From contig CP160630.1 in assembly GCA_038993745.2 (NCBI GenBank), positions 992,001 through 1,056,000 of the forward strand: DNA of 64,000 bases. The letters run 5' to 3'. The notes under the pieces were generated by a model, which was not told where the DNA came from, made no database searches, and saw only the letters and a program-made list of their open reading frames with translations. Position numbers and translations under genes: made by a program. Below, in pieces: positions 1,844-57,223 of this stretch. This DNA comes from Aliivibrio fischeri (GTDB taxonomy: Bacteria; Pseudomonadota; Gammaproteobacteria; Enterobacterales; Vibrionaceae). Positions within the stretch are counted from its first letter, which is position 1; each line of letters starts with the position of its first letter.

Positions 1844-2103
1844 TGTATAGACTCTATTAATATGAACAATTAAAGAAGATATAGGGATTTGGCGAGAATT
1901 TAAGGGATTAGGTGGGATTAAAACCTCATGAAACCATATAGAATAAGGGCTGACGGTTTTTTTAAAATCGCAGCCCTTAATGGTATTTATGGATTGAGCA
2001 AAAATTTGCAAAATGAGCAATTTCTCTAAGATGGTAAAAATACGCTAATAAATTGAGCACTATCAAGATGGGTAGAATTAGTGTTTAAACTGAATTTAAA
2101 CTT
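1844..2103. repeat. P1 left end: transposase-binding region
   Basis: The 5' end TGTA is followed after 13 bases by TATGAACAAT (1861-1870), the counterpart of L1. Related TGAGCA cores appear in GATTGAGCAAAAA near 1994, AATGAGCAATTT near 2011 and AATTGAGCAC near 2052, and probably form L2 and L3. An 8-bp dyad AAGGGCTG/CAGCCCTT (about 1945-1978) with an A/T-rich centre may end the minus-strand repressor transcript. TTTAAAC occurs three times (2083-2090, 2095-2101, 2103-2109) beside the repressor stop. No gene is evident. Confidence 0.75.
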
Positions 2104-2787
2104 TTAAACATCTTTCGAAATGTGTACAACTTGACCTATTACCTCAAACTGGTTTTGTTCTTCTTTAGTTATATCTATTACACTATATAGTTGGTTATCG
2201 CTAATTAATCTCCACGCACTTGGCATGCTCTGATACCTTTTTACAAAAACCTCATCACCGTGTCTAAAAATATAAAGATGCCCATCCTTAAGAGTGTTTT
2301 TATTCATATTGACGACAATAGTATCATTGTTATGTATTGTTGGCTCCATACTGTCACCTTTTACCCATACAACTGTTAAATCACTATCTTTAAATCCTCT
2401 ATATTTCAGCCACTTACGACGAAAAGCTAAGTATCTTGTTGGTGTAATATTGTCTTCATTGATAACTCCATTTCCTGCCGAAACTTGGACGTTATAACCT
2501 GGAATTAAAGCAAAATCATTAAGAAAGTTTGTATTATCAAGGTTGTCATTATCTTCTATATAACCCGTACAAAGCCATTCAAAAGAAACATTTGCTGCTT
2601 CAGCAATAATTATCAATTTATCTAATGATGGATAAGTTGTTCCAGATAAATATTTTCTTAAACCAGACTCTGAGTGCCCGCACTTTTGTGCGAATTCGCG
2701 CACAGAAATATCACCTATAGATTCCCTAAGCCTCTCAGGAAAGCGCATTATTGTGTTTTTATCAAAAAAGTGTTTCGCCTTTTTCAT
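2104..2787 (-). CDS. P1 lysogeny repressor: XRE-type HTH plus S24 (LexA/CI) domain
   Basis: A 227-residue repressor. Residues 15-65 form a helix-turn-helix (ISVREFAQKCGHSESGLRKYLSG). The C-terminal half is an S24 autoprotease, with catalytic Ser in VKGDSMEPTI, Lys in EVFVKRYQ, and an Ala-Gly cleavage site in YNVQVSAGNG. RecA-stimulated self-cleavage, and so SOS induction, is expected; this differs from the ClpXP-controlled Mu c repressor. It is transcribed away from ner and the transposase. Its own coding DNA holds a perfect palindrome CGCAC-TTTT-GTGCG (2679-2692) like the operators upstream. It has no detectable N-terminal homology to the P2 repressor. Confidence 0.9.
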   Translation of the reverse strand: MKKAKHFFDKNTIMRFPERLRESIGDISVREFAQKCGHSESGLRKYLSGTTYPSLDKLIIIAEAANVSFEWLCTGYIEDNDNLDNTNFLNDFALIPGYNVQVSAGNGVINEDNITPTRYLAFRRKWLKYRGFKDSDLTVVWVKGDSMEPTIHNNDTIVVNMNKNTLKDGHLYIFRHGDEVFVKRYQSMPSAWRLISDNQLYSVIDITKEEQNQFEVIGQVVHISKDV

Positions 2788-2863
2788 TAGTAAATCGCTC
2801 TTTTGTTGTTAACCTATTGTTTTTTAACTAAATGGTCGCACGCAAGTAAAGTTACGCACAACA

Positions 2864-2931
2864 ACACAAAAAAGCGCAAAACTATTGACATGCGCACTTT
2901 TGTGATCAATCATGTGTTACACAAGAGCGCA
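2864..2931. promoter_or_regulatory. P1 early promoter and operator array
   Basis: Three copies of a GCGC-N2-TTTTGTG-like element lie between the repressor and ner: CACAAAAAAGCGC (2865-2877), CGCACTTTTGTG (2893-2904) and CACAAGAGCGC (about 2920-2930). A rightward promoter fits: TTGACA at 2885-2890, 17-bp spacer, AATCAT at 2908-2913. The middle operator lies in its spacer, so repressor binding would block it. A fourth copy lies inside the repressor gene (2679-2692). Assignment rests on pattern and position. Confidence 0.65.
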
Positions 2932-2971
2932 GCATATTAGTGTAGCGCGTTAGTGTTTAGCGGAGAATATC

Positions 2972-3199
2972 ATGATGAGTGACTTAGATCGAGATTGGCA
3001 TGTGGCAGACATAAGAGCTGCAATAGCAAAAACAGATATAAATTTTGAACAATTAGCAAAAGAAAATGGAATTGCGGGAGCGACACTTAGAAATGCTCTG
3101 AGATTTAAATATCCAAAAGCAGAACGAATCATTGCAGAACGCATAGGTGTTTCACCAGAAGAAATCTGGCCATCTCGTTATATTAATAAATGTGCATAG
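2972..3199 (+). CDS. ner: Ner-like negative regulator of early transcription
   Basis: A 75-residue HTH protein of the Ner/Nlp (SfsB) family, with the signature order WHVADIRAAI, LAKENGIAGATLRNAL, ERIIAERIGVSPEEIWPSRY. In Mu, Ner turns down early and repressor transcription at the start of lytic growth. A GGAG lies about 10 bases before ATGATG; the second ATG is equally possible. It is the first gene rightward from the operators, 8 bases before the likely transposase start. The P2 homologue keeps the family motifs but is diverged, as expected if it recognises different operator DNA. Confidence 0.85.
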   Translation: MMSDLDRDWHVADIRAAIAKTDINFEQLAKENGIAGATLRNALRFKYPKAERIIAERIGVSPEEIWPSRYINKCA

Positions 3200-3207
3200 G
3201 TGGGCTT

Positions 3208-5199
3208 ATGTGGGTAACCGTAAAAGAATGTCTTGGTGTCGGCGGAATGCCAACTGATGCTAGTAATGTCAGAAAGCGTTTAAATGATTTATCAAATGAA
3301 AACACAAGACGTAAAAGGAAAGGAACTAAATCATTTGAGTATGACACAAGAATTTTATCTCCAGTAATTATCACCGCCCTGATGAAAAAACAGGGAAAAG
3401 TAAACGTCGGTGGACAAGAAATCGTACTACCGAAACCAAAAGAAAAAACCTCTTATTGCAGTGAAGCACTTTGGGCTCGTTGGAATAAAGCAGGTGCAAA
3501 AGCGCAAGACAAAGCAAAGAAAACGCTTAAAGCCGTTCAGGCCGTACAGCAGTTAGTGAACCACCAGGTTCCAAAAATGGACGCTTATCAATCTGTTTCT
3601 GACGAGTTCGGAATTCCAGTGGCAAGCCTTCGTAGATATTGCGCACAAGTAAAACGAATAGACATTGCTGATTGGGCTCCTGCTCTTCTACCGAAACATA
3701 AAGAAGCAGCGCAACTAGCAAGAAAGAAACACTTTGCAGAGATAGACGACCAAGCATGGGACTTTATCAAAGCTGATTATCTATCAAACGAAGAGCCAAC
3801 CCTCACCGTTTGTTATGAAAGATTAAAAGATGCAGCGTCACACAACGGATGGAAAATCCCAAGTTACGACAGCATTAGAAGAAGAATGGCGTTTGAAGTT
3901 CCTGTAGAGCAGCGCGTCATGTTACGCAAAGGTGAGCACGCATTATTAATGATGTACCCACCGCAAGAACGCAGCGTCGCAGACTTGTACGCAATGCAAT
4001 GGATAAACGGAGATGGTTACCAACACAACGTCTTTGTTAAATGGTTTAACGGCGAAATCCTAAGACCAAAAACATGGTTCTGGCAAGACATATACAGTCG
4101 CAAGATCATCGGATGGCGAACCGACATAAGCGAAAACACAGACAGCATTCGATTATCAATGATGGATGTGTTCGACAAGTTCGGAATACCAAAAGAAATA
4201 ACGATCGATAACACCAGAGCAGCAGCAAACAAATGGATGACGGGCGGAGTACCAAACCGATACCGATTCAAAGTAAAAGAAGATGACCCACTAGGCATCA
4301 TCCCAATGATGGGAATAAAGCTGCACTGGTCAAGCGTCATATTAGGAAAAGGTCATGGTCAAGCCAAGCCGATAGAACGAGCGTTTGGTGTTGGTGGTTT
4401 AGATGAATACATCGACAAACACCCATTAAACAGAGGTGCTTATACAGGCCCTAACCCAATGGCAAAACCAGACAACTACGGCAGCACCGCGATAGACGCA
4501 GAAGTGTTTCTTCAGTCGGTAGCGAAAGGAGTAGAAATGTTCAACGCAAAAGAGAACCGAAGTTCGGAAGCGTGCCAAGGTTTCATGAGTTACAACCAAG
4601 CATTTAATGCCAGTTACGAAAGCTCAGCAATACGCAAAGCAACACCAGAGCAATTGCAACTAATGATGCTGCAAGCAGAAGCAACAAGAGTATCGCAGCA
4701 CGGAACAATTACCTTGTCAGCGGGGGGAAGTTTACAAGGTCGTAAGAACCGTTATCACCATGAAACGCTGACCAACTTTATAGGACAAAAACTAGTAGCA
4801 AGATTCGACCCACTAGCGCTGCATGAATCAGTAGAAATCTACACCCTTCAAGGTGTTCGAATTTGTACCGCAGCATGTTTAGACAAAGTAGGTTTTGGCG
4901 ATACGCAAGCAGCAAGAGAGCATACACGCAAGCGTACACAATTTGGAAAAGCAAACAAGATAGCCGCAAAAGCGCAGCATGAAATGACCGCACTTGAAGC
5001 AGCAGCATTAATGAAACCTTTGGAAGAAGAAGTAGTACCAGAGACGAAAATAGTAGAACCATTTAGACCAGTTTCAATCGGCAGTAATGCAGTGAAAGCA
5101 CAGCCGAAATATGAAGAAGATGCGGAAGAAGAATATGAGGAAAATTTCGCAGCAAGTATAGCTAAATGGCGTAGCACTAAAAATTCAAACAGCATTTAA
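3208..5199 (+). CDS. A: MuA-like DDE transposase
   Basis: A 663-residue transposase (MuA is 663) that pairs the phage ends and joins them to target DNA. Start 3208 (MWVTVKE) is preferred to 3190 because AGGTGGG precedes it. An N-terminal Mu-type HTH (residues 1-60) should bind the internal enhancer; Ibeta/Igamma domains follow. The catalytic triad is D269 (INGDGYQHN), D334 (ITIDNTRAAA) and E390 (GQAKPIERAFG), matching MuA D269, D336, E392. A C-terminal domain for MuB and ClpX contact follows. From codon ~57 (ALMKKQGKV) onward it is nearly identical to the P2 copy, while the first domain is unrelated in detail. Confidence 0.97.
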   Translation: MWVTVKECLGVGGMPTDASNVRKRLNDLSNENTRRKRKGTKSFEYDTRILSPVIITALMKKQGKVNVGGQEIVLPKPKEKTSYCSEALWARWNKAGAKAQDKAKKTLKAVQAVQQLVNHQVPKMDAYQSVSDEFGIPVASLRRYCAQVKRIDIADWAPALLPKHKEAAQLARKKHFAEIDDQAWDFIKADYLSNEEPTLTVCYERLKDAASHNGWKIPSYDSIRRRMAFEVPVEQRVMLRKGEHALLMMYPPQERSVADLYAMQWINGDGYQHNVFVKWFNGEILRPKTWFWQDIYSRKIIGWRTDISENTDSIRLSMMDVFDKFGIPKEITIDNTRAAANKWMTGGVPNRYRFKVKEDDPLGIIPMMGIKLHWSSVILGKGHGQAKPIERAFGVGGLDEYIDKHPLNRGAYTGPNPMAKPDNYGSTAIDAEVFLQSVAKGVEMFNAKENRSSEACQGFMSYNQAFNASYESSAIRKATPEQLQLMMLQAEATRVSQHGTITLSAGGSLQGRKNRYHHETLTNFIGQKLVARFDPLALHESVEIYTLQGVRICTAACLDKVGFGDTQAAREHTRKRTQFGKANKIAAKAQHEMTALEAAALMKPLEEEVVPETKIVEPFRPVSIGSNAVKAQPKYEEDAEEEYEENFAASIAKWRSTKNSNSI

Positions 5200-5224
5200 A
5201 CATTAGGTAAATGGAGTATAAAAA

Positions 5225-6172
5225 ATGACAAACGTAACAGCGATTTCACAAGCGCAAGAATCAAAAAGTGTAGACACACTAATGCGCATTCGCACCATCT
5301 TAGATAGCAAAGAAGTCAGTGCTTCACAGCTTGCAAAAGAGATGAGTGTTTCTCCTGCAACTATTAGCCAAATTTTGAAAGGAAGCTACAAAGCAGACAC
5401 CACAAAAATCATTGAAAAAATGGCGAAATGGCTAACGCTTCGTGAGCAAAAAAACAACGCGCCAATCACTAACCCAGGCTTTGTTATGACAACCACAGCA
5501 AAGCAAATTATCAACGACATGACGTATGCACAAATCAGTGAATCTATCGTCGTTATCTATGGTGCTTCAGGGGTTGGTAAATCAGAAGCAATTCGTGAAT
5601 ACAAACGTACCAACAACAACGTTTGGCACATTACAGCTAGCCCTAGTCGCTCAAGTTTAACCGAGTGTCTTTATGAACTAGCAATGGAACTAGGAATGGA
5701 CGACGCACCACGTCGTAAAGGGTCACTTTCTCGCGTTATCCGAAACCGACTACAAGGCTCTGAAGGTTTAGTTGTGATCGACGAAGCAGATCACCTAGAT
5801 TACCCAACACTAGAAGAGCTTCGCATCATGCAAGAAGAGACAGGAATAGGAATGGTTCTTGTCGGTAACAACAAAGTGTATACGCAGCTAACTGGCGGCC
5901 GTCGTAACGAAGACTTTGCACGCTTGTTTTCACGCATTGCAAAGAAACGTGGCATCCACAAAACAAAACAAGCTGATGTAAAAGCCATTGCTGAAGCATG
6001 GGGAATTCATCAAGAAGCTGAGCGTAAAACAATGATCAACATTAGTGAGCGACCAGGTGGTTTGCGACTGCTAAGTAAGACACTAAAACTGGCCGCAATG
6101 TTTGCCAATGGTTCAACCATTACCGACAAAACATTACGTGCCGCTTTCCAAGAATTAGAAACGAACGAGTAA
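5225..6172 (+). CDS. B: MuB-like target DNA activator, AAA+ ATPase
   Basis: A 315-residue protein (MuB is 312). An N-terminal lambda-Cro-type HTH (VSASQLAKEMSVSPATISQIL, about residues 31-51) is followed by a AAA+ core with Walker A GASGVGKSE near residue 112 and Walker B GLVVIDEAD. A C-terminal helical domain ends the protein. MuB polymerises on DNA, delivers target to MuA and gives target immunity. It lies 25 bases after A in the same transcript. The P2 copy is essentially identical. Confidence 0.96.
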   Translation: MTNVTAISQAQESKSVDTLMRIRTILDSKEVSASQLAKEMSVSPATISQILKGSYKADTTKIIEKMAKWLTLREQKNNAPITNPGFVMTTTAKQIINDMTYAQISESIVVIYGASGVGKSEAIREYKRTNNNVWHITASPSRSSLTECLYELAMELGMDDAPRRKGSLSRVIRNRLQGSEGLVVIDEADHLDYPTLEELRIMQEETGIGMVLVGNNKVYTQLTGGRRNEDFARLFSRIAKKRGIHKTKQADVKAIAEAWGIHQEAERKTMINISERPGGLRLLSKTLKLAAMFANGSTITDKTLRAAFQELETNE

Positions 6173-6183
6173 GGAATAAAACG

Positions 6184-47717: not shown

Positions 47718-50011
47718 TATTCATCTTCCTCTGTGTTTAAACGATTTTTGGCGATACGGCGAAGTACTCTAAATAAAATAATTGTGACCATTACAACTAA
47801 TAAGGCGGCAAGCAAAGCCATCACTAACGGGTGTTTTGAAAAGTGGTACCAAATCAACTGAGAAATCGGTAATTCACCTACGTAGTAATGTTCTCCTACA
47901 TTAAAACTGGCTACCTCATCGTCTCGTAAGGTAATAACAGAACCAAACATAGCCGACACTTTACCGCTGTCATTTAATGCTTCATTGACCAATGCAAACG
48001 ATTCTGGTGTCTGTGCTAAAACGCTCACAATGGTACGTTGTGATGTATATGGTGACTCCATACTAGTGATAGCCGCAAAGTTACCTGTCGTATTAATACT
48101 TACTGAATCAGAAACCTGTTGGTTTTTACCTGACGAAGCTCCCCAATTTTGTCCTTTTTGAGTCTCATTCTTGCTTGGTAGCTGAACAATACGATTCGAT
48201 GCAACTAATTGAATATTTTCAATTTTCTCTTTATTAATAGACGCTAACTCTGGCGTCATTCCTATGGTTAAGATATCTTTATCTTCAAGGTCACTTTCAT
48301 TCCAATTATCAGTTAAAGCGACATTTAATACTGAGTAACCAGTATGAGAACCAAATACCCCCATCATATTAACGAAAGTCTGGATTTCTTCTGTACTTGG
48401 CTGCTTAGGTAATACAACAACCGTTTCAGATAAATCAGCCATTCGTGTAAATGGATAGCCCGAATTGGCAAAAGCACGCATATTCGGCATTTCGATATAA
48501 TGAGAGAAACCTGAAAAATCGATAGTCGAATCTGAATTGATTACCGCATAATTCTTACTTGGTTGCATGGTTTGACACTGATCTTTACCACCAATAGAGG
48601 AAGCGAAACCAAATTCAAATTTAACCTCATTTTTACTACCCACTTGGAAAGCAGGAATACGGACCACTTGGCCATTTCCTAATAAATCATCGTCTAACAA
48701 AGGAAGTCTCAAGTGAGTATTGTCATTCGATTCACCTGACGTATTTAAATTAAACGCTTTTACGAATTGATTGTTAACACTAAGACTCATTCTAGAGCCA
48801 GAGTGATCTCGTAGTGGTGGCGTATAACGATAATTTAAGTCAAATGGGATCCCGTTACTTTGCCAAGTAAATAAATCAGGCGGCAATCTAAAGTGAAGAG
48901 AAATAGGCGGTGGATTTTGCCCTTCCACTTGTAATGTCATGCCTTCCGTTAATAGCTCTGATAACGCAACAGGTCTGTCTGTATTTATCCAATTGGGCGC
49001 GTCATAAGGAATACGAGGAACTAATTGTTCTGCAGAATTAATTTTTGCCGACGGTCCTGTTAACAAATCTTGTCCTAGTGCCAACCCTTTTACTGCGGTA
49101 ATTAAATCTTCACTATTTCGTCCCATAATCAGCAATAATTTAACGTAAGGATCTGCTGGATGAGAAATCATTTGAATACGAGGGCCATCAGCGTCAGGGA
49201 AATCACGTAAGAAATCAGGTTTGCTATCATTAGTGATAAAAACAATCGCATCATTTTTTGGCAATTGATCATCTAATATTGGAAAACTTGCTCCACGCCA
49301 TTGAGCTAACGCACCAAAATAAGATGAAGCAATACCCGCAGCTTTAATTTCATTAAGATCAAGCTTCTCACCAAATACCATTGGTAAATTGACATGCTTC
49401 ATGTCTCTTGAATCAAAAAATGGCGCTGGTAATAAACTTAGATCATTATTAATTTTTGTTTTTTGAGTCGCTAATGTAATCGTACTTTGAGAGCTGATTT
49501 CAGTCCAAATACTGTTATCATTTGGATTACTACATGACATAGAGGCATTACCAACCAATTCAAATTTTAGTTGGTTAAAATCAGTGAACAAACGCGGATC
49601 GAGCTCAAGATCAACATCCCCTTTCTGACCTTGCATACCATCAGAAATAGCAACAACCCCAGCCAATTGGTTATTAAAATACACCTTTATATGTGAAACC
49701 ATAGAAAGCAATGCTGGTGATGGCGTAAAATCAAAATGAAGAGAAGCTTTAGACACAACCTCATCTAAACGTGAGCCAAAACCAATATAAGCAGTACTTT
49801 CACTCCCCTGCAATCGGATTGATTCTCCATAACCAAGATCACCAAAACTAAACGTTTTTTTCGTAATAATTGAGGATGCTTGTGATGTTTGTATTATTCC
49901 ATTTTGTAATGGAGCATTGTCACTATGAGCTGTAGCCACCGATGCATTTGCACCCGAGCTCATAAGACCTATTGCTACTGCAAAAACGCTTATTTTTGTT
50001 TTAATCGACAT
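47717..50011 (-). CDS. bcsB: BcsB: cyclic-di-GMP-binding cellulose synthase periplasmic subunit
   Basis: 764 residues from ATG 50011, which opens a clear signal peptide (KTKISVFAVAIGLMSSGANA); a GTG at 50068 would add 19 residues that spoil it. Periplasmic carbohydrate-binding and flavodoxin-like repeats, then a C-terminal membrane anchor (HPLVMALLAALLVVMVTIILF) that packs on BcsA. The start overlaps the bcsA stop by 11 bases. The name's c-di-GMP link is historical; binding is in BcsA. Confidence 0.93.
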   Translation of the reverse strand: MSIKTKISVFAVAIGLMSSGANASVATAHSDNAPLQNGIIQTSQASSIITKKTFSFGDLGYGESIRLQGSESTAYIGFGSRLDEVVSKASLHFDFTPSPALLSMVSHIKVYFNNQLAGVVAISDGMQGQKGDVDLELDPRLFTDFNQLKFELVGNASMSCSNPNDNSIWTEISSQSTITLATQKTKINNDLSLLPAPFFDSRDMKHVNLPMVFGEKLDLNEIKAAGIASSYFGALAQWRGASFPILDDQLPKNDAIVFITNDSKPDFLRDFPDADGPRIQMISHPADPYVKLLLIMGRNSEDLITAVKGLALGQDLLTGPSAKINSAEQLVPRIPYDAPNWINTDRPVALSELLTEGMTLQVEGQNPPPISLHFRLPPDLFTWQSNGIPFDLNYRYTPPLRDHSGSRMSLSVNNQFVKAFNLNTSGESNDNTHLRLPLLDDDLLGNGQVVRIPAFQVGSKNEVKFEFGFASSIGGKDQCQTMQPSKNYAVINSDSTIDFSGFSHYIEMPNMRAFANSGYPFTRMADLSETVVVLPKQPSTEEIQTFVNMMGVFGSHTGYSVLNVALTDNWNESDLEDKDILTIGMTPELASINKEKIENIQLVASNRIVQLPSKNETQKGQNWGASSGKNQQVSDSVSINTTGNFAAITSMESPYTSQRTIVSVLAQTPESFALVNEALNDSGKVSAMFGSVITLRDDEVASFNVGEHYYVGELPISQLIWYHFSKHPLVMALLAALLVVMVTIILFRVLRRIAKNRLNTEEDE

Positions 50012-52628
50012 AACTGATTGCACTCTGAAAATTGACTTTTTTTGGTTTAAATGTGAGTAAGAACTCACTTGTTATAGTTATTAGTTTTACGATAGCTCGC
50101 ACTGTTTTAGGGCTGTAAGCTATTGTATTTTTGTATCCTTTTGCCCCAATTTTAAATACGCTGAGCATGCTGGATAACGGTTTGTCACTTTGATAGCTTT
50201 TTTGCCATTTACTCCATACATCTGCACGGGCAAAAGTACATTGCACATAATCTATATTTTGTTGTTTTGTTAATGGCTCCAACTGCAGCCCTAATGCTTT
50301 ACCGTTGCTATAGCTTACTGTTGTAGGAAAAACAAAATGATGCTCACCTCTTTGCAACGCAATATTAAGTGAATGACCAGATGGCAAATCAAGTGAGACT
50401 GGTAATTCGACACGTAGTCCACCTAATGAAAAATCCTTAATGTCACAACGCACTTTATGCCCAGAAGATAAATGTATAGACATTGGAATATTTACGACCA
50501 CACGATGATCTTTTCTCACCTGCTTTGACTCTTCTGCAACCGCAACCGCACCACCAAGTATCAATAAATTATAAAAAACCCAAAGTAAGTTAACGACAAC
50601 ACTTCCAAGCTCATCATCAGGGCCCCAGCCTAGTCGATAGAGACCAAAGCCAATGCCTAAAACATTAAGAATAACAAGTAACCAATACGGCTTTGAAATG
50701 GACCAGTCGTAGTGCGTTTCTTCAATTAACCCACCTTTAGCTGTAACATTAAATGTCCCTTTATGCGGAGCAAACAGTGCTACAGTTGTTGGTCTTGCGA
50801 TATACCATGACAAAACGGTTTCATACACCTCCCCCCAAAAGGAATAACGATATTCCCCCTGCATTCGAGAGTTCGTCATACTTGCGTGAACCATGTGTGG
50901 TAACACATATAAAATAATCGCCAATGCTGGTGCATAAATAATATACGTATGCATAATTAGGAAAACTAACGGCGCAAGCAAAAAGATAATACGAGGAATA
51001 CCCGACAAGAAGTGGAGCATCGCATTGGCATAGCACAATCTCTGCTGCCATTTTAGACCTTTACCTAATAAAGGATTATCCACTCTAAAAATTTGAGCCA
51101 TGCCACGAGCCCAACGAATTCGTTGTCCAATGTGAGCAGATAAGGTTTCAGTCGCTAATCCTGCTGATAATGGCTTTCGCAAATAGGCTGAACGATAACC
51201 CAAACGATGCATTCTTAATGAAGTATGTGCATCTTCCGTTACCGTTTCTACTGCAATGCCTCCCACCTCTTCTAATGGTTCTCGGCGTAATACTGCACAT
51301 GACCCACAAAAGAAAGAGGCATCCCATAAATCATTACCATCTTGAATTAAGCCATAAAACAAGCTGCCTTCATTTGGTACAACACCAAAGTTTGATAGAT
51401 TTCTTTCAAAAGGATCAGGCGAAAAGAAGTGATGTGGAGTTTGAATTAATCCAAGCTTTTTATCTTTTAAAAACCATCCCATAGTCAGCTGAAAAAAAGC
51501 ACGGGTTGGTATGTGGTCACAATCAAAAATGGCAACAAACTCACCTGAAGTTTGTTTTAAAGCATAATTAATATTGCCCGCTTTAGCATGTTCATTTGTC
51601 GGTCTACGGATATAACCTACACCTACTTCTTTAGCGAATTCTTTAAATGAATCTCTTTTGCCATCATCAAGAATAAATATATTCAACTTTTCTTTAGGCC
51701 AATCAACACCTAAAGCTGAGTATACAGTTGCTCGAACTACATCTAGATCTTCATTATACGTAGGGATCATCATATCAATCGTTGGCCACGTTGATTGATC
51801 TTCAGGCAATGATGCAGGCTGTCGATTTAAAGGCCAAATGTTTTGAAAGTAGCCAAGAATAAGAACAATCCATGCATACGTTTCCGCTATTAAAAGTACA
51901 CAACCTAAAAACAGTGCTAGCGGATCATCCCAATTTAATGATGAGGTATATCGCCACCAAATATAACGGCATGAAACCGTTACTGACAACGTAATCAACA
52001 ATATAGTCGGAAACTTGCCTGGCATTCGTCGAAACATCATACCAAGAGACCATAATGCAAAAATGAAAAAAGCCTGTGCTGTTAAGCTAAAAGGAATCGT
52101 AAAACACAATAAAGCAAGCATACAAACAGCAACGCCTATAATCACATTAATCACACGTTCACTGACGATTGCACTACGTTTACTTACATTTTCCTTCTTT
52201 CTTATCTCACTATATTTAGAATAATTTTCTAACCATGCAACAACGGAAGTCAGCCCTTTTAACGGAAAGTAGAAAATACGATTTATTTGTCTCCAAACAT
52301 AGCTAATCCATTGAGTTAAAGAAATGTCTTGCGTTATTTTCTTAGGCTGAACAACAAGTATTATCCAAACTAATTGAATACACATACGTAATGGGTCTAA
52401 GAATTTTAGTTGTGAAAAATCAATTTGTGGAAATAAGTAATGTGGCAACTTCCAACTATCAACATTAAAAATGGTTGGCTTTAAAAAGCAAAAGCAAATA
52501 AAAAACCATAGTGATAACACCAACTGGCTAATACCTGTTGCCACTTTATCTTGAGTATAAAAGTTCAATTGCAACCGGAATTCTTTAACGAATCTCGGTT
52601 GAAATAAAAATGAAAGCCAGCCAAACAT
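50001..52628 (-). CDS. bcsA: BcsA: cellulose synthase catalytic subunit
   Basis: 875 residues, multi-pass membrane GT2 enzyme that polymerises UDP-glucose. Catalytic motifs: ILDDGKRDSF, FDCDHIP (DxD), VTEDAHTSLRMH (TED) and QRIRWARGMAQ (QxxRW). C-terminal PilZ domain with RKDHR and DFSLGGLRVE binds c-di-GMP and opens the gate. Intact, but cut off from upstream sequence by prophage 2 only 220 bases before its start. Confidence 0.96.
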   Translation of the reverse strand: MFGWLSFLFQPRFVKEFRLQLNFYTQDKVATGISQLVLSLWFFICFCFLKPTIFNVDSWKLPHYLFPQIDFSQLKFLDPLRMCIQLVWIILVVQPKKITQDISLTQWISYVWRQINRIFYFPLKGLTSVVAWLENYSKYSEIRKKENVSKRSAIVSERVINVIIGVAVCMLALLCFTIPFSLTAQAFFIFALWSLGMMFRRMPGKFPTILLITLSVTVSCRYIWWRYTSSLNWDDPLALFLGCVLLIAETYAWIVLILGYFQNIWPLNRQPASLPEDQSTWPTIDMMIPTYNEDLDVVRATVYSALGVDWPKEKLNIFILDDGKRDSFKEFAKEVGVGYIRRPTNEHAKAGNINYALKQTSGEFVAIFDCDHIPTRAFFQLTMGWFLKDKKLGLIQTPHHFFSPDPFERNLSNFGVVPNEGSLFYGLIQDGNDLWDASFFCGSCAVLRREPLEEVGGIAVETVTEDAHTSLRMHRLGYRSAYLRKPLSAGLATETLSAHIGQRIRWARGMAQIFRVDNPLLGKGLKWQQRLCYANAMLHFLSGIPRIIFLLAPLVFLIMHTYIIYAPALAIILYVLPHMVHASMTNSRMQGEYRYSFWGEVYETVLSWYIARPTTVALFAPHKGTFNVTAKGGLIEETHYDWSISKPYWLLVILNVLGIGFGLYRLGWGPDDELGSVVVNLLWVFYNLLILGGAVAVAEESKQVRKDHRVVVNIPMSIHLSSGHKVRCDIKDFSLGGLRVELPVSLDLPSGHSLNIALQRGEHHFVFPTTVSYSNGKALGLQLEPLTKQQNIDYVQCTFARADVWSKWQKSYQSDKPLSSMLSVFKIGAKGYKNTIAYSPKTVRAIVKLITITSEFLLTFKPKKVNFQSAISYVD

Positions 52629-52631
52629 AGA

Positions 52632-52849
52632 TTATTTACCCTCTACCTCTTTCGCCGAAAAATGAGTTAAAAGCCAAAACGATAATTCATTTATACCCTG
52701 AGATATTTGACTATGAGGAGCATAATTAAGTACTGGATTAAGCTGTGAACACGCATCTGGTACCGCAGTATCAAAATGTAAAAACATAGGTAAGCACTGC
52801 TTATCTAACTCATATTTAAGCACCAACGACAAATCGACACTATTATCGC
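52632..52849 (-). pseudogene. bcsQ: C-terminal fragment of a BcsQ-like ParA/MinD ATPase cut by prophage 2
   Basis: The last ~71 codons (NSVDLSLVLKYELDKQCLPMFLHFDTAVPD, split; NYAPHSQISQGINELSFWLL) fit the end of BcsQ/YhjQ, the pole-localising ATPase gene that comes before bcsA in related genomes. The frame runs straight into the phage end at 52850. The start and ATPase motifs must lie beyond P2, outside the window. Family assignment rests on the short fragment and context. Confidence 0.65.
52845..52849. repeat. Predicted target-site duplication of prophage 2, left copy (ATCGC)
   Basis: These five host bases abut the TGTA end of P2. The second copy should follow the TACA end beyond the window. 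Confidence 0.7.
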
Positions 52850-53122
52850 TGTATAGACTCTATTAATATGAACAATTAAAGAAGATATAGGGATTTGGCG
52901 AGAATTTAAGGGATTAGGTGGGATTAAAACCTCATGAAACCATATAGAATAAGGGCTGACGGTTTTTTAAAATCGCAGCCCTTAATGGTATTTAGGGATT
53001 GAGCAAAAATTTGCAAAATGATCAATTTCTCTAAGATGGTAAAAATACGCTAATGAATTGAGCACAAGCGCAAATCCTTGAATCGATGTTTAAACTAAAT
53101 TTAAACGTTTAAAATTCGGTTT
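52850..53122. repeat. P2 left end: transposase-binding region
   Basis: Nearly base-for-base the same as the P1 left end up to about 53062, including TATGAACAAT at 52867-52876 and the TGAGCA cores, with one T fewer in the AAGGGCTG/CAGCCCTT dyad. P1 transposase should therefore recognise it. After that the sequences diverge, but GTTTAAAC/TTTAAAC/GTTTAAA (53088-53113) is retained beside the repressor stop. Confidence 0.75.
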
Positions 53123-53806
53123 TTAAACTCTGGCTTTTCTAATCCTGGTCATAAGAACGCGAACCGCCTCACCAATTACTTCAATATCATTAAGATCATC
53201 CCCAGAAAAGAACATCTCATCGTACTCTTTGTTATCACTTTTAACTTTAAGTGTCTGTTTTATATGGTTGTATTGAATCCTTTTTATAAACAAATCATCT
53301 TTAAGACGAATAACATAGACCCCTTCATGCAAAAAGCTTTCTAAGTTAACCCTTTGTATTAGCACTAAATCATCCTCATACAGCGTAGGTTCCATAGAAT
53401 CACCTTTAACTGGAAGAATGAATAGCTCTCTACGGTTCGTAACGCCATAGAGCGATAGAAGCTCTTTCTGAATAGTTACATACTCGGTCGCTTGATCTTG
53501 TTCGTATGGAACGCAACCATGACCAGCTGAAACAGTAACATCATAGACAGGAATCTTAACAGAATCAGTAAGATATATTACTGATGGCTCTAGTATTTCA
53601 TTTGTAGTTATTTCTTCTAAAGCTGATTTTGGAAGGCTGCTTATATGATATTCAAAAGCAACTCCTTTAATTCCTGTTTTTTGTCGTTTCTTCCAGCCTT
53701 CTTTTGATGCTTTTCTTGTGACATTACTAGCCGTATTAGGCATTCCTTTAAGTAGTGAAATCTCATCTGATGAAAACCATTCTTTCATGATTTTAAAAAC
53801 CTCCAT
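53123..53806 (-). CDS. P2 lysogeny repressor: Mu-type HTH plus S24 domain
   Basis: 227 residues. The N-domain (EWFSSDEISLLKGMPNTASNV, GWKKRQKTGIKGVAFEYHISSLP) is a Mu-type HTH, the fold shared by Mu repressor and the MuA N-terminus, unlike the XRE domain of P1. The C-domain is an S24 autoprotease: Ala-Gly in YDVTVSAGHG, Ser in VKGDSMEPTL, Lys in DLFIKRIQ. Its N-domain resembles that of the P2 transposase, as expected if both read the same operator/enhancer DNA. SOS induction is likely. Confidence 0.9.
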   Translation of the reverse strand: MEVFKIMKEWFSSDEISLLKGMPNTASNVTRKASKEGWKKRQKTGIKGVAFEYHISSLPKSALEEITTNEILEPSVIYLTDSVKIPVYDVTVSAGHGCVPYEQDQATEYVTIQKELLSLYGVTNRRELFILPVKGDSMEPTLYEDDLVLIQRVNLESFLHEGVYVIRLKDDLFIKRIQYNHIKQTLKVKSDNKEYDEMFFSGDDLNDIEVIGEAVRVLMTRIRKARV

Positions 53807-53812
53807 TTGAAA

Positions 53813-53937
53813 TCAAAATGATTTCAAAAAAATTATTGATACGACCCAATAAAAACAAAGACTTAGCAAAAAGCCTTAAATTTTTATGAAATCTTTTTGA
53901 ATTCACTATTGATTTCAAAAAGAATCCAAATTATTAT
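53813..53937. promoter_or_regulatory. P2 early promoter and operator array
   Basis: The dyad GAAATC-N5-GATTTC near 53815-53831 and two further GATTTC/GAAATC-containing copies (about 53887-53905 and 53911-53927) lie between repressor and ner. A rightward promoter TTGATT (53909-53914), 17-bp spacer, TATTAT (53932-53937) has the third copy in its spacer. These share nothing with the P1 operators, so the prophages should be heteroimmune. Confidence 0.65.
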
Positions 53938-53950
53938 CTTTTTAACGCAT

Positions 53951-53972
53951 GAGCTACCGCACGAGGTAGCTC
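53951..53972. repeat. Perfect inverted repeat before P2 ner
   Basis: GAGCTACC (53951-53958) and GGTAGCTC (53965-53972) with loop GCACGA, downstream of the early promoter and 30 bases before ner. It may be the Ner site or a 5' mRNA hairpin. P1 has no counterpart. Confidence 0.5.
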
Positions 53973-54001
53973 AAAATAAATAAGAAAGAGGATCGCATGA
54001 T

Positions 54002-54232
54002 ATGAGCCTTAAGAAAAGAGATATGGCACGAGAAGATATTGTTGCTGAATTAAAGAAACGAAAAATCTCACTTCGTTCGTTAGGAATAGAAAATGGATTA
54101 TCTCCTCATACGTTAAAAAATGCTTTAGATAAATCGTACAGAAATGGCGAAATTATTATTGCAAAGGCAATTGGAATGAAGCCTGAAGATGTGTGGCCTT
54201 CTAGATATGACTCTTTTAATAATGCTGCGTAA
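54002..54232 (+). CDS. ner: Ner-like negative regulator, P2 type
   Basis: 76 residues: DIVAELKKRKISLRSLGIENGLSPHTLKNALDK (split) and IIIAKAIGMKPEDVWPSRY, the Ner/Nlp signature. It is clearly diverged from the P1 Ner. GAAAGAGG lies about 12 bases upstream; an overlapping ATG-ATA-TGA at 53997-54005 sits between and could modulate initiation. Confidence 0.83.
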   Translation: MSLKKRDMAREDIVAELKKRKISLRSLGIENGLSPHTLKNALDKSYRNGEIIIAKAIGMKPEDVWPSRYDSFNNAA

Positions 54233-54243
54233 TAGGAGGGGTT

Positions 54244-56240
54244 ATGACTAGTTGGTTTACAGCAAAAGAATTAGTAGGGCTTCCAGGATTACCCGAACAT
54301 TCTCAAACATATCAAGAATGGCTAAAAAAAACGGGTGGGAATTCAGAAGAAAAGAAGGAGTTAAAGGTGTTGCTTATGAATTCTCAATGAATTCACTACC
54401 AATACAAACCCAAACCGCCCTGATGAAAAAACAGGGAAAAGTAAACGTCGGTGGACAAGAAATCGTACTACCGAAACCAAAAGAAAAAACCTCTTATTGC
54501 AGTGAAGCACTTTGGGCTCGTTGAAATAAAGCAGGTGCAAAAGCGCAAGACAAAGCAAAGAAAACGCTTAAAGCCGTTCAGGCTGTACAGCAGTTAATGA
54601 ACCACCAGGTTCCAAAAATGGACGCTTATCAATCTGTTTCTGACGAGTTCGGAATTCCAGTGGCAAGCCTTCGTAGATATTGCGCACAAGTAAAACGAAT
54701 AGACATTGCTGATTGGGCTCCTGCTCTTCTACCGAAACATAAAGAAGCAGCTCAACTAGCAAGAAAGAAACACTTTGCAGAGATAGACGACCAAGCATGG
54801 GACTTTATCAAAGCTGATTATCTATCAAACGAAGAGCCAACCCTCACCGTTTGTTATGAAAGATTAAAAGATGCAGCGTCACACAACGGATGGAAGATCC
54901 CAAGTTACGACAGCATTAGAAGAAGAATGGCGTTTGAGGTTCCTGTAGAGCAGCGCGTCATGTTACGTAAAGGTGAGCACGCATTATTAATGATGTACCC
55001 ACCGCAAGAACGCAGCGTAGCAGACTTGCACGCAATGCAATGGATAAACGGAGATGGTTACCAACACAACGTCTTTGTTAAATGGTTTAACGGCGAAATC
55101 CTAAGACCAAAAACATGGTTCTGGCAAGACATATACAGTCGCAAGATCATCGGATGGCGAACCGACATAAGCGAAAACACAGACAGCATTCGATTATCAA
55201 TGATGGATGTGTTCGACAAGTTCGGAATACCAAAAGAAATAACGATCGATAACACCAGAGCAGCAGCAAACAAATGGATGACGGGCGGCGTACCAAACCG
55301 ATACCGATTCAAAGTAAAAGAAGATGACCCACTAGGCATCATCCCAATGATGGGAATAAAGCTGCACTGGTCAAGCGTCATATTAGGAAAAGGTCATGGT
55401 CAAGCCAAGCCGATAGAACGAGCGTTTGGTGTAGGTGGTTTAGATGAATACATCGATAAACACCCATTAAACCGAGGTGCTTATACAGGCCCTAACCCAA
55501 TGGCAAAACCAGACAACTACGGCAGCACCGCGATAGACGCAGAAGTGTTTCTACAGTCGGTAGCGAAAGGCGTAGAAATGTTCAACGCAAAAGAGAACCG
55601 AAGTTCGGAAGCGTGCCAAGGTTTCATGAGTTACAACCAAGCATTTAATGCGAGTTACGAAAGCTCAGCAATACGCAAAGCAACACCAGAGCAATTGCAA
55701 CTAATGATGCTGCAAGCAGAAGCAACAAGAGTATCGCAGCACGGAACAATTACCCTGTCAGCAGGGGGAAGTTTACAAGGTCGTAAGAACCGTTATCACC
55801 ATGAAACGCTGACCAACTTTATAGGGCAAAAACTAGTAGCAAGATTCGACCCACTAGCGCTGCATGAATCAGTAGAAATCTACACCCTTCAAGGTGTTCG
55901 AATTTGTACCGCAGCATGTTTAGACAAAGTAGGTTTTGGCGATACGCAAGCAGCAAGAGAGCATACACGCAAGCGTACACAATTTGGAAAAGCAAACAAG
56001 ATAGCCGCAAAAGCGCAGCATGAAATGACCGCACTTGAAGCAGCTGCATTAATGAAACCTTTGGAAGAAGAAGTAGTACCAGAGACGAAAATAGTAGAAC
56101 CATTTAGACCAGTTTCAATCGGCAGTAATGCAGTGAAAGCACAGCCGAAATATGAAGAAGATGCGGAAGAAGAATATGAAGAAAATTTCGCAGCAAGTAT
56201 CGCTAAATGGCGTAGCACTAAAAATTCAAACAGCATTTAA
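54244..56240 (+). pseudogene. A: MuA-like transposase with a frameshift and an in-frame stop
   Basis: GGAGG precedes ATG 54244 (MTSWFTAKELVGLPGLPEHS). After that the frame leaves the family and ends at 54390; the neighbouring frame supplies the expected SNISRMAKKNGWEFRRKEGV and KGVAYEFSMNSLP, so a base is missing near 54301-54303. In the restored frame TGG of P1 (LWARW) is TGA here at 54522-54524. From ATG 54597 the remaining 547 codons are intact and almost identical to P1, including the DDE triad. Such a protein would lack the enhancer- and part of the end-binding domain. Confidence 0.9.
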
Positions 56241-56265
56241 ACATTAGGTAACTGGAGTATAAAAA

Positions 56266-57213
56266 ATGACAAACGTAACAGCGATTTCACAAGCGCAAGA
56301 ATCAAAAAGTGTAGACACACTAATGCGCATTCGCACCATCTTAGATAGCAAAGAAGTCAGTGCTTCACAGCTTGCAAAAGAGATGAGTGTTTCTCCTGCA
56401 ACTATTAGCCAAATTTTGAAAGGAAGCTACAAAGCGGACACCACAAAAATCATTGAAAAAATGGCGAAATGGCTAACGCTTCGTGAGCAAAAAAACAACG
56501 CACCAATCACTAACCCAGGCTTTGTTATGACAACCACAGCAAAGCAAATTATCAACGACATGACGTATGCACAAATCAGTGAATCTATCGTCGTTATCTA
56601 TGGTGCTTCAGGGGTTGGTAAATCAGAAGCAATTCGTGAATACAAACGTACCAACAACAACGTTTGGCACATTACAGCTAGCCCTAGTCGATCAAGTTTA
56701 ACTGAGTGTCTTTATGAACTAGCAATGGAACTAGGAATGGACGACGCACCACGTCGTAAAGGGTCACTTTCTCGCGTTATCCGAAACCGACTACAAGGCT
56801 CTGAGGGGTTAGTCGTGATCGACGAAGCAGATCACCTAGATTACCCAACACTAGAAGAGCTTCGCATCATGCAAGAAGAGACAGGAATAGGAATGGTTCT
56901 TGTCGGTAACAACAAAGTGTATACGCAGCTAACGGGCGGCCGTCGTAACGAAGACTTTGCACGCTTGTTTTCACGCATTGCAAAGAAACGTGGCATCCAC
57001 AAAACAAAACAAGCTGATGTAAAAGCCATTGCTGAAGCATGGGGAATTCATCAAGAAGCTGAGCGTAAAACAATGATCAACATTAGTGAGCGCCCAGGTG
57101 GTTTGCGACTACTAAGTAAGACACTAAAACTGGCCGCAATGTTTGCCAATGGTTCAACCATTACCGACAAAACATTACGTGCCGCTTTCCAAGAATTAGA
57201 GACGAATGAGTAA
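56266..57213 (+). CDS. B: MuB-like target DNA activator, P2 copy
   Basis: 315 residues, identical in protein sequence to the P1 copy as far as I compared: HTH near residue 40, Walker A GASGVGKSE, Walker B GLVVIDEAD. Differences are synonymous bases. Functional by sequence. Confidence 0.95.
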   Translation: MTNVTAISQAQESKSVDTLMRIRTILDSKEVSASQLAKEMSVSPATISQILKGSYKADTTKIIEKMAKWLTLREQKNNAPITNPGFVMTTTAKQIINDMTYAQISESIVVIYGASGVGKSEAIREYKRTNNNVWHITASPSRSSLTECLYELAMELGMDDAPRRKGSLSRVIRNRLQGSEGLVVIDEADHLDYPTLEELRIMQEETGIGMVLVGNNKVYTQLTGGRRNEDFARLFSRIAKKRGIHKTKQADVKAIAEAWGIHQEAERKTMINISERPGGLRLLSKTLKLAAMFANGSTITDKTLRAAFQELETNE

Positions 57214-57223
57214 GGAATAAATT

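Follow-up and report, generated by a model that had tools for sequence, protein, structure and literature searches.

In lambdoid phages, the repressor, the operators and Cro are swapped together as a block. For phages of the Mu type, coliphage D108 is heteroimmune to Mu, similar repressor and transposase N-termini were reportedly described in both phages in a 1986 publication (cited in PMC3820752), and the specificity of the D108 and Mu transposases has been a subject of classical work. Further accounts, cited here and below for the accessible parts of each paper, concern the Shigella phage SfMu, which has a Mu backbone and whose c repressor and Ner are 89% and 98% identical to those of D108 versus 24% and 47% to those of Mu (PMC4406740), and the D3112/MP22 group of Mu-like Pseudomonas phages, whose highly variable repressor and Ner have been tied to the lack of cross-immunity (PMC4378225). 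In addition, the repressors of Mu and D108 are given as lacking an S24 domain, repressors that combine a helix-turn-helix (HTH) domain with S24 are described in Mu-like phages, and a correlation between mitomycin and S24 has been suggested for them (PMC8541194). In the present study, two Mu-like prophages, P1 and P2, were analysed in a stretch of 64,000 nucleotides (nt) of Aliivibrio fischeri (contig CP160630.1, positions 992,001 to 1,056,000; hereafter, the window), with a focus on the block that reaches from the left end region through the repressor, the control region and ner into the transposase gene A. Results revealed that this block has been exchanged between phages by recombination. 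Very probably, it is an immunity-specificity cassette of Mu-like phages, that is, a set of parts matching operator and enhancer DNA that recombination replaces together.

Borders of the exchanged block in P1 and P2

BLAST of the window against itself revealed a match of 92.3% between 1837-2108 and 52843-53113 and a gapless match of 98.75% between 3373-6180 and 54414-57221, with no match between P1 2057-3372 and P2 53062-54413 beyond the fading left edge. A forced alignment inside the block yielded mostly 40-60% identity per alignment window. At the right border, the 50-column identity profile jumped in a single step to 50/50 at P1 3373 and P2 54414, and the maximum-likelihood change point lay 3 nt upstream of the Ala codon of ALMKKQ (P1 3376), with identity of 0.44 on one side versus 0.99 on the other. 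According to an alignment with MuA, this border corresponds to approximately residue 59-60 of MuA and falls within the Ialpha fragment (residues 1-76) whose structure has been solved (the limits of Ialpha and of the other A domains were taken from solved MuA structures). On the left side, identity dropped off across P1 2056-2108, and the step was located at about 2057, between the left end of the phage and the 3' end of the repressor gene (2104).

An earlier note on this DNA had described the two prophages as near-identical on both sides of the block and unrelated within it, with a right border at ALMKKQ. The unrelated interior, the near-identical right side and the position of the right border were all borne out, and the base-by-base alignment gave a one-codon step there rather than gradual divergence. 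The left side has to be corrected, as near identity covers only the 213-nt terminal segment and the border lies past the 3' end of the repressor gene, not at 2104. Moreover, four segments besides the immunity block differ between the prophages, namely P1 6181-6413 (P2 57222-57570), 10491-10702, 14561-14990 and 21332-21860, and the immunity block is thus one of several replaced segments.

Within the block, the DNA-binding domains of the two repressors belong to unrelated families (HTH_3 in P1 and Mu-type in P2), and the control regions differ in their repeat, CGCACTTTTGTG in P1 and TGATTTCAAAAA in P2. The P1 repressor fits the lambda CI-type layout of an N-terminal HTH followed by a C-terminal S24 peptidase, and RecA-stimulated self-cleavage is predicted for it from these domains. 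A second exact copy of CGCACTTTTGTG was observed at 2679-2690, within the P1 repressor coding sequence. For the transposase of P1, HTH_Tnp_Mu_1 scored 22.7 bits, slightly below the cut-off of 23.3. For that of P2, two reading frames are needed upstream of the right border, and an in-frame TGA follows downstream of it (region 54244-54525). Judging by these two lesions, P2 may be unable to transpose unaided despite its intact ends, and may represent a stranded prophage.

A third sibling, locus L009 of Aliivibrio sp. S4MY1, the one relative found among named genome contigs, carries an intact A in which the body is 98% the same and Ialpha is a third version. At its left end and in the C-terminal part of its repressor it matches P2 (90.6% over P2 1-864), its repressor DNA-binding part is 0.70 identical to that of P2, and its control region, ner and Ialpha are 0.51-0.55 identical. 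In this pair, the repressor gene itself contains the left border, loosely placed 120 amino acids (aa) from the C-terminus (range 118-150), and the right border agrees within 3 nt among P1, P2 and L009. The same sort of right border was found in L009 and in the Vibrio loci L003, L004 and L023, as the earlier note had anticipated in proposing that sharp breakpoints recur in relatives. Vibriophage martha (L004) and the Vibrionaceae locus L023 have a second backbone in common. The pairs sharing a backbone (P2/L009 and L004/L023) are 0.97-0.99 identical in A after the junction and 0.49-0.55 identical in the control region, ner and Ialpha. The pairs sharing a cassette (P2/L004 and L009/L023) are 0.77-0.89 identical in the control region, ner and Ialpha, and their backbones differ (0.77-0.78 in the conserved catalytic part, 0.58 over the first 500 nt past the junction). 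Each of the two backbones therefore occurs with each of the two cassettes. Likewise, L026 and L054 share a cassette at 0.95-1.00 on backbones only 0.62-0.76 identical.

Joint replacement of repressor, Ner and Ialpha

To place these cases, 112 Mu-like loci (101 distinct) were parsed. From 275 relatives on viral contigs the best 80 were kept, hits from genomes and phages were added to them, and 369 genomes searched across the class contributed one new, distant relative only. The A genes of distinct pairs that were at least 95% identical in aa at residues 380-560 and at least 90% in nt across the last 500 nt scanned were examined from the 3' side, with no preselection on Ialpha. This yielded 51 near-identical pairs from 18 backbone lineages, in which Ialpha identity was below 70% in 37, 73-79% in five and at least 95% in nine. 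Together with P1/P2 and P2/L009, 53 sibling pairs were available; all genes were parsed in 41, and 32 of these had Ialpha below 70%. Ner was below 65% identity in every one of the 32. The C-terminal part of the repressor was retained (at least 75%) in 20 of them, representing eight lineages, and the left border in these 20 lay at a median of 140 aa from the repressor C-terminus (interquartile 135.5-140.75, range 117-177), compared with Pfam S24 starts at 128 aa before the end in the P1 repressor and 142 in that of P2. In the other 12 pairs (four lineages, eight pairs from one; including P1/P2 and Mu/D108), the C-terminal part was also changed. In the lineage of L071, L077 and L114, one S24 part is joined to three kinds of DNA-binding part in turn, Mu-type of class II, Mu-type of class I and XRE-type; two of the underlying matches, Mu-type in L071 and HTH_3 in L114, fall below Pfam cut-offs. 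L081 (1-999) and L082 (1-969), both on the minus strand, encode repressors with tandem HTH_3 (XRE-type) and Mu-type domains ahead of a single S24; such double-domain proteins are possible intermediates between the repressor families.

Partial correlations over 70 phages pointed in the same direction. The backbone predicted the repressor C-terminal part (0.53) but not the N-terminal part (0.01) or Ner (0.04), and Ialpha predicted the repressor N-terminal part (0.33), Ner (0.27) and the control region (0.15), each with p 0.001. Within classes, the control region tracked Ialpha at 0.61 (class I) and 0.41 (class II).

An immunity-specificity cassette would account for this division. It would carry the repressor DNA-binding part, the operator region, Ner and the transposase Ialpha, all of which would have to fit the operator/enhancer sequence, and the operator-independent parts would remain with the backbone, namely, on the right, gene B and those parts of A that bind the ends and act in catalysis, and on the left, the phage end and, in the 20 pairs above, the S24 part. 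With operator-matching parts moving and independent parts staying, it would be explained why the borders sit close to domain junctions in two proteins that are transcribed divergently. In the long form, as in P1/P2, the entire repressor is replaced, and in the short form, as in P2/L009, the repressor is cut between its DNA-binding and S24 parts. A retained S24 part would keep induction tied to the SOS response, and escape from immunity would be the selection behind the exchange.

The match between repressor and transposase was assessed within phages. P2 has a repressor of the same family as its type of Ialpha (HTH_Tnp_Mu_1), and repressor class equalled Ialpha class in 39/39 unique loci with a Mu-type repressor (class I 17/17, class II 22/22), where the classes derive from profiles seeded by eye out of the same locus set, 31 of the 112 loci (28 of the 101 unique) without a classifiable repressor are excluded, and L081 and L082 are counted as Mu-type class II though carrying both kinds of domain. 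Among 19 cassettes less than 80% alike, the repressor DNA-binding domain matched the Ialpha of its own phage at 0.447, compared with 0.408 for others of its class (p 1e-4); P2 was omitted from these tests since its A is broken, and martha represents its cassette. In class I (12 cassettes), the excess match fell on S, Q, N, S and R of the L004 stretch SQNISR, which we take to be the recognition helix, and on one later Val (column p 0 to 0.0225 from 2000 shuffles each, uncorrected for the number of columns). In class II (nine cassettes), a single column reached p 0.02 among all tested. The class I columns include L118 (E. coli UMNF18) and L119 (cS51a), two further cassettes on the Mu/D108 backbone whose repressor and Ialpha were seen to carry similar recognition-helix residues.

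Operator repeats were compared with motifs picked after inspecting P1, P2 and L009, and control stretches above 500 nt were skipped. TGATTTCAAAAA (at most two mismatches) occurred six times in the control region of P2, five times in that of martha and four times in that of D108, where shuffled sequences gave 0.2, 0.2 and 0.0, and a single time in every one of the other nine loci compared. The P1 repeat CGCACTTTTGTG recurred in L013/L052, L042 and L056, and TTCTTTTAA was found in L009, L023/L041 and L028. Besides TGATTTCAAAAA, P2, martha and D108 have the residue pattern N-I/V-T/S-R in common. Ialpha presumably binds the repeats named here. A special kinship of the P2 cassette with D108 was rejected at the whole-protein level, as the Ialpha of L004 shows 45% identity with D108 and 44% with Mu, versus 52% with D108 for the A body; the likeness to D108 is confined to a few residues, the repeat and Ner (62% for P2/D108, 55% for L004/Mu).

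Several results weigh against a cassette held together by shared operators. Over the 70 phages, the control region tracked the backbone (0.14) and Ialpha (0.15) to a similar extent, and is hence no clean passenger across all classes; its own Ialpha was the best match of the repressor in just six of the 19 cassettes; the XRE profile, which covers the class of the P1 repressor, did not match the Ialpha profile (hhalign probability below 1%); and within the XRE class, control-region similarity showed no link to Ialpha once the backbone was removed (partial r 0.09, p 0.106), although the repressor N-terminal part (0.56) and Ner (0.33) follow Ialpha there. These last two results render the shared-operator logic weakest for P1 itself, where joint exchange would need an Ialpha that reads the exchanged enhancer with its own specificity. 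It could be argued that the exchange is real and that Ialpha is a passive passenger, carried along since ner and A adjoin, which need not read the exchanged DNA. The P1 repressor from another family, the pairing of XRE-type repressors with both Ialpha types (30 type II and 4 type I, unique loci) and the activity of MuA without Ialpha in an enhancer-free assay (PMC3362531) are in keeping with such a passenger. However, borders between ner and A should then be equally common, yet Ialpha changed along with Ner; repressor and Ialpha residues match within a phage; and the Ialpha of Mu contacts enhancer sites O1-O2 (PMC3562280, PMC3362531). A passive Ialpha is accordingly considered improbable, and the immunity-specificity cassette is retained. 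Of the proposal that repressor, operators, Ner and the transposase N-terminal domain move as one unit, the block exchange with a border in A held, and the S24 part staying behind in 20 of 32 pairs departs from it; the proposal that this transposase domain reads the operators gains support from P2-type proteins, which are of one family and share residues, but not from the unrelated HTH_3 repressor of P1.

Position of the right border across lineages

In a change-point set of 60 pairs, 58 of which were picked for low Ialpha and high Ibeta/gamma identity, the right border was scattered from -80 to +78 nt round the reference codon (about 160 nt). Since such a choice of pairs forces the break to the junction, the scan was repeated without it, which gave the 51 pairs described above. 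A step was detected in 46 of them and none in five. The 46 steps correspond to 27 distinct lineage-by-position events, 20 of which lie at A residues 44-90; a uniform null gives p 5e-17 for this clustering, a descriptive value only. Four of the 46 steps were local dips with the 5' side still 0.89-0.96 identical, one of them among those 20 events, and their removal leaves 26 distinct events, of which 19, from 14 of the 18 backbone lineages, fall at residues 44-90. Counting against the cassette reading, the remaining events lie at residues 216-228 (five of 26), 28 and 280 (one each); furthermore, the pairs share members and are not independent, a uniform breakpoint null is crude, and a scan from the 3' side shows no step beyond the first. 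The second cluster, at A 216-228, was observed in the lineages L071-L114, L075-L080 and L069/L109; it falls within Igamma by MuA numbering and is not linked to immunity.

The recurrence of the right border in the same stretch of A, with agreement within 3 nt among P1, P2 and L009, might be explained by a site-specific or programmed switch, in which a recombinase or a short target at the border swaps the cassette. The scatter over the 60 pairs argues against a fixed site, however, no fixed recombination site was found at the border in that set, and the left border occurs in two places, which makes a switch of this kind very unlikely, although no search was aimed at silent cassettes or a dedicated recombinase. 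Least credible of all is fast divergence in place, without transfer, of repressor, operators, Ner and Ialpha under immunity selection, for although the least conserved core genes of the Pseudomonas Mu-like group include repressor and Ner (PMC4378225) and five of the 51 sibling pairs have an intermediate Ialpha, such divergence would leave neither one-codon steps, nor the same cassettes on different backbones, nor unrelated DNA-binding families alternating on a single S24 domain. Under the cassette reading, by contrast, it appears more likely than not that one pool of cassettes, bounded inside two divergently encoded proteins, serves Mu-like phages of several genera, that a single event may change the repressor family (XRE to Mu-type) with S24 and the transposase body untouched, and that, for the Mu-type cassettes, a short recognition-helix code common to repressor and transposase predicts operator and immunity group across genera.

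Co-residence, prophage context and known systems

P1 and P2 are probably heteroimmune, close relatives that would ignore each other's repressor. The claim that both can live in one cell through separate immunity stands as far as they do co-reside; P2 has a broken A, and same-type pairs co-reside elsewhere, which speaks against the use of co-residence as proof of heteroimmunity and counts against the cassette reading. A query with the E. coli core located 98 places in 86 of 5,426 genomes, assigned to the Mu type (31 in 26 genomes), the D108 type (44 in 44), a third type (15 in 14) and a fourth (1 in 1). Eleven genomes had at least two core places, explaining all 12 extra places; one of these, 12A, was excluded because its listed best match spans 4% of the query. 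Of the ten genomes kept, six hold a same-type pair (Mu-type twice in the laboratory or production strains ST18, S17-1, HBUT-L, hubt-sl and KO11FL; third type twice in cS51a), three hold different types (Mu and third in MIN10; D108, Mu and third in 22KM0354; D108 and fourth in UMNF18), and JCKP02, with one D108-type and an untyped second copy, is ambiguous. In addition, G108 contains two prophages 99.4% identical across the compared loci with the same repressor, and the siblings L072 and L114, with different cassettes, belong to one genome according to the IMG genome number in their contig names. Different immunity thus permits co-residence, yet it is not required for it.

Both P1 and P2 are full-length Mu-like prophages with matched 5-bp target duplications at unrelated insertion sites (Table 1). 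Their termini are of the 5'-TG...CA-3' type (TGTATA...CTACA), and their last 150 nt are the same. Pfam DDE_2, HTH_Tnp_Mu_2 and Mu-transpos_C were detected in both, and P1 aligns with Mu records across A and B (the DDE transposase A, then the ATPase B). With the shared A-B stretch as query, this 4.35-Mb genome of two contigs, the second of which (1.42 Mb) carries the window, yielded two copies only, P1 and P2. By eye, the open reading frames (ORFs) flanking P1 (1598-2020 and 34953-36608) appear to be parts of one methyl-accepting chemotaxis gene interrupted by P1, and P2 adjoins what was judged to be a cellulose-synthase (bcs-like) cluster (50001-52832).

Table 1. Coordinates of the two prophages and of the features of their exchanged blocks (window positions)
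Feature	Positions	Strand	Basis or remark
Prophage P1	1844-34974	+	33,131 bp; 5-bp duplication TTCAC
P1 left terminal segment	1844-2056		98.6% identical with P2 over 213 nt
P1 exchanged block (putative immunity cassette)	2057-3372		Long form, whole repressor through A Ialpha
P1 repressor, S24 peptidase part	2104-2490	-	Pfam Peptidase_S24, residues 100-221, E 3.4e-26
P1 repressor, DNA-binding part	2491-2787	-	Pfam HTH_3 (lambda CI/XRE-like), residues 21-72, E 4.8e-10
P1 control region	2788-2971		Operator-like repeats CGCACTTTTGTG; exact copy 2893-2904
P1 ner	2972-3199	+	PHROG 769 (transcriptional repressor), E 9.1e-28; Pfam HTH_35
P1 transposase gene A, intact	3208-5199	+	Mechanical ORF from 3190; Ialpha approx. 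3208-3424; Pfam DDE_2, HTH_Tnp_Mu_2
Right border in P1	3373-3376		A codon 56-57
Prophage P2	52850-64000 (in window)	+	32,558 bp overall, ending 21,407 bases past the window; 5-bp duplication ATCGC
P2 exchanged block (putative immunity cassette)	53062-54413		BLAST and identity profile
P2 repressor	53123-53806	-	HTH_Tnp_Mu_1, residues 19-66, E 3.3e-15; Peptidase_S24, residues 86-215, E 1.3e-18
P2 control region	53807-54001		TGATTTCAAAAA repeats; exact at 53819-53830 and 53910-53921
P2 ner	54002-54232	+	PHROG 769, E 2.1e-29; Pfam HTH_35
P2 transposase gene A, broken	54244-56240	+	Frame change in Ialpha part; in-frame TGA at 54523
Right border in P2	54414-54417		BLAST, profile and change point

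In modular exchange, these phages resemble the lambdoid immunity regions, in which, to our knowledge, the exchange border cuts no replication enzyme, unlike A here. SfMu relates to Mu much as P1 does to P2, with c and Ner swapped on a common backbone, and a border inside the transposase is not discussed in the accessible part of that account (PMC4406740). Likewise, the accessible part of the D3112/MP22 account treats whole genes and mentions no domain-level borders, unlike the present survey (PMC4378225). In the titles and abstract openings listed from the open literature, which leave subscription journals mostly outside their scope and are thus weak evidence of absence, neither a second border inside the repressor gene nor a change of repressor family with S24 kept was found.

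The closest counterpart is the Mu/D108 pair, in which, as in P1/P2, a near-identical A body and B stand beside an unrelated c repressor, control region and Ner and an unrelated A N-terminus. P1 and P2 have in common with that pair the same backbone, an unrelated repressor-operator-ner block and a border in the N-terminal domain of A. The right step of Mu/D108 lies at residue 71 (P1 numbering) versus 56-57 in P1/P2, approximately 14 residues on, where the same domain ends. Both Mu and D108 repressors are of the Mu-type DNA-binding family, which thus remains unchanged, whereas the families differ between P1 and P2; homology between the repressor and transposase N-termini, present in both coliphages, is found in P2 but not in P1, given its HTH_3 repressor. 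The residues common to repressor and transposase offer a testable code for predicting mutual exclusion among Mu-like phages, and natural sibling pairs on one backbone are available for testing it. Mu and D108 already show this architecture; the second border within the repressor, with S24 kept, is the addition made here, and the classical Mu/D108 case becomes a general pattern with a second border that is absent from Mu/D108.

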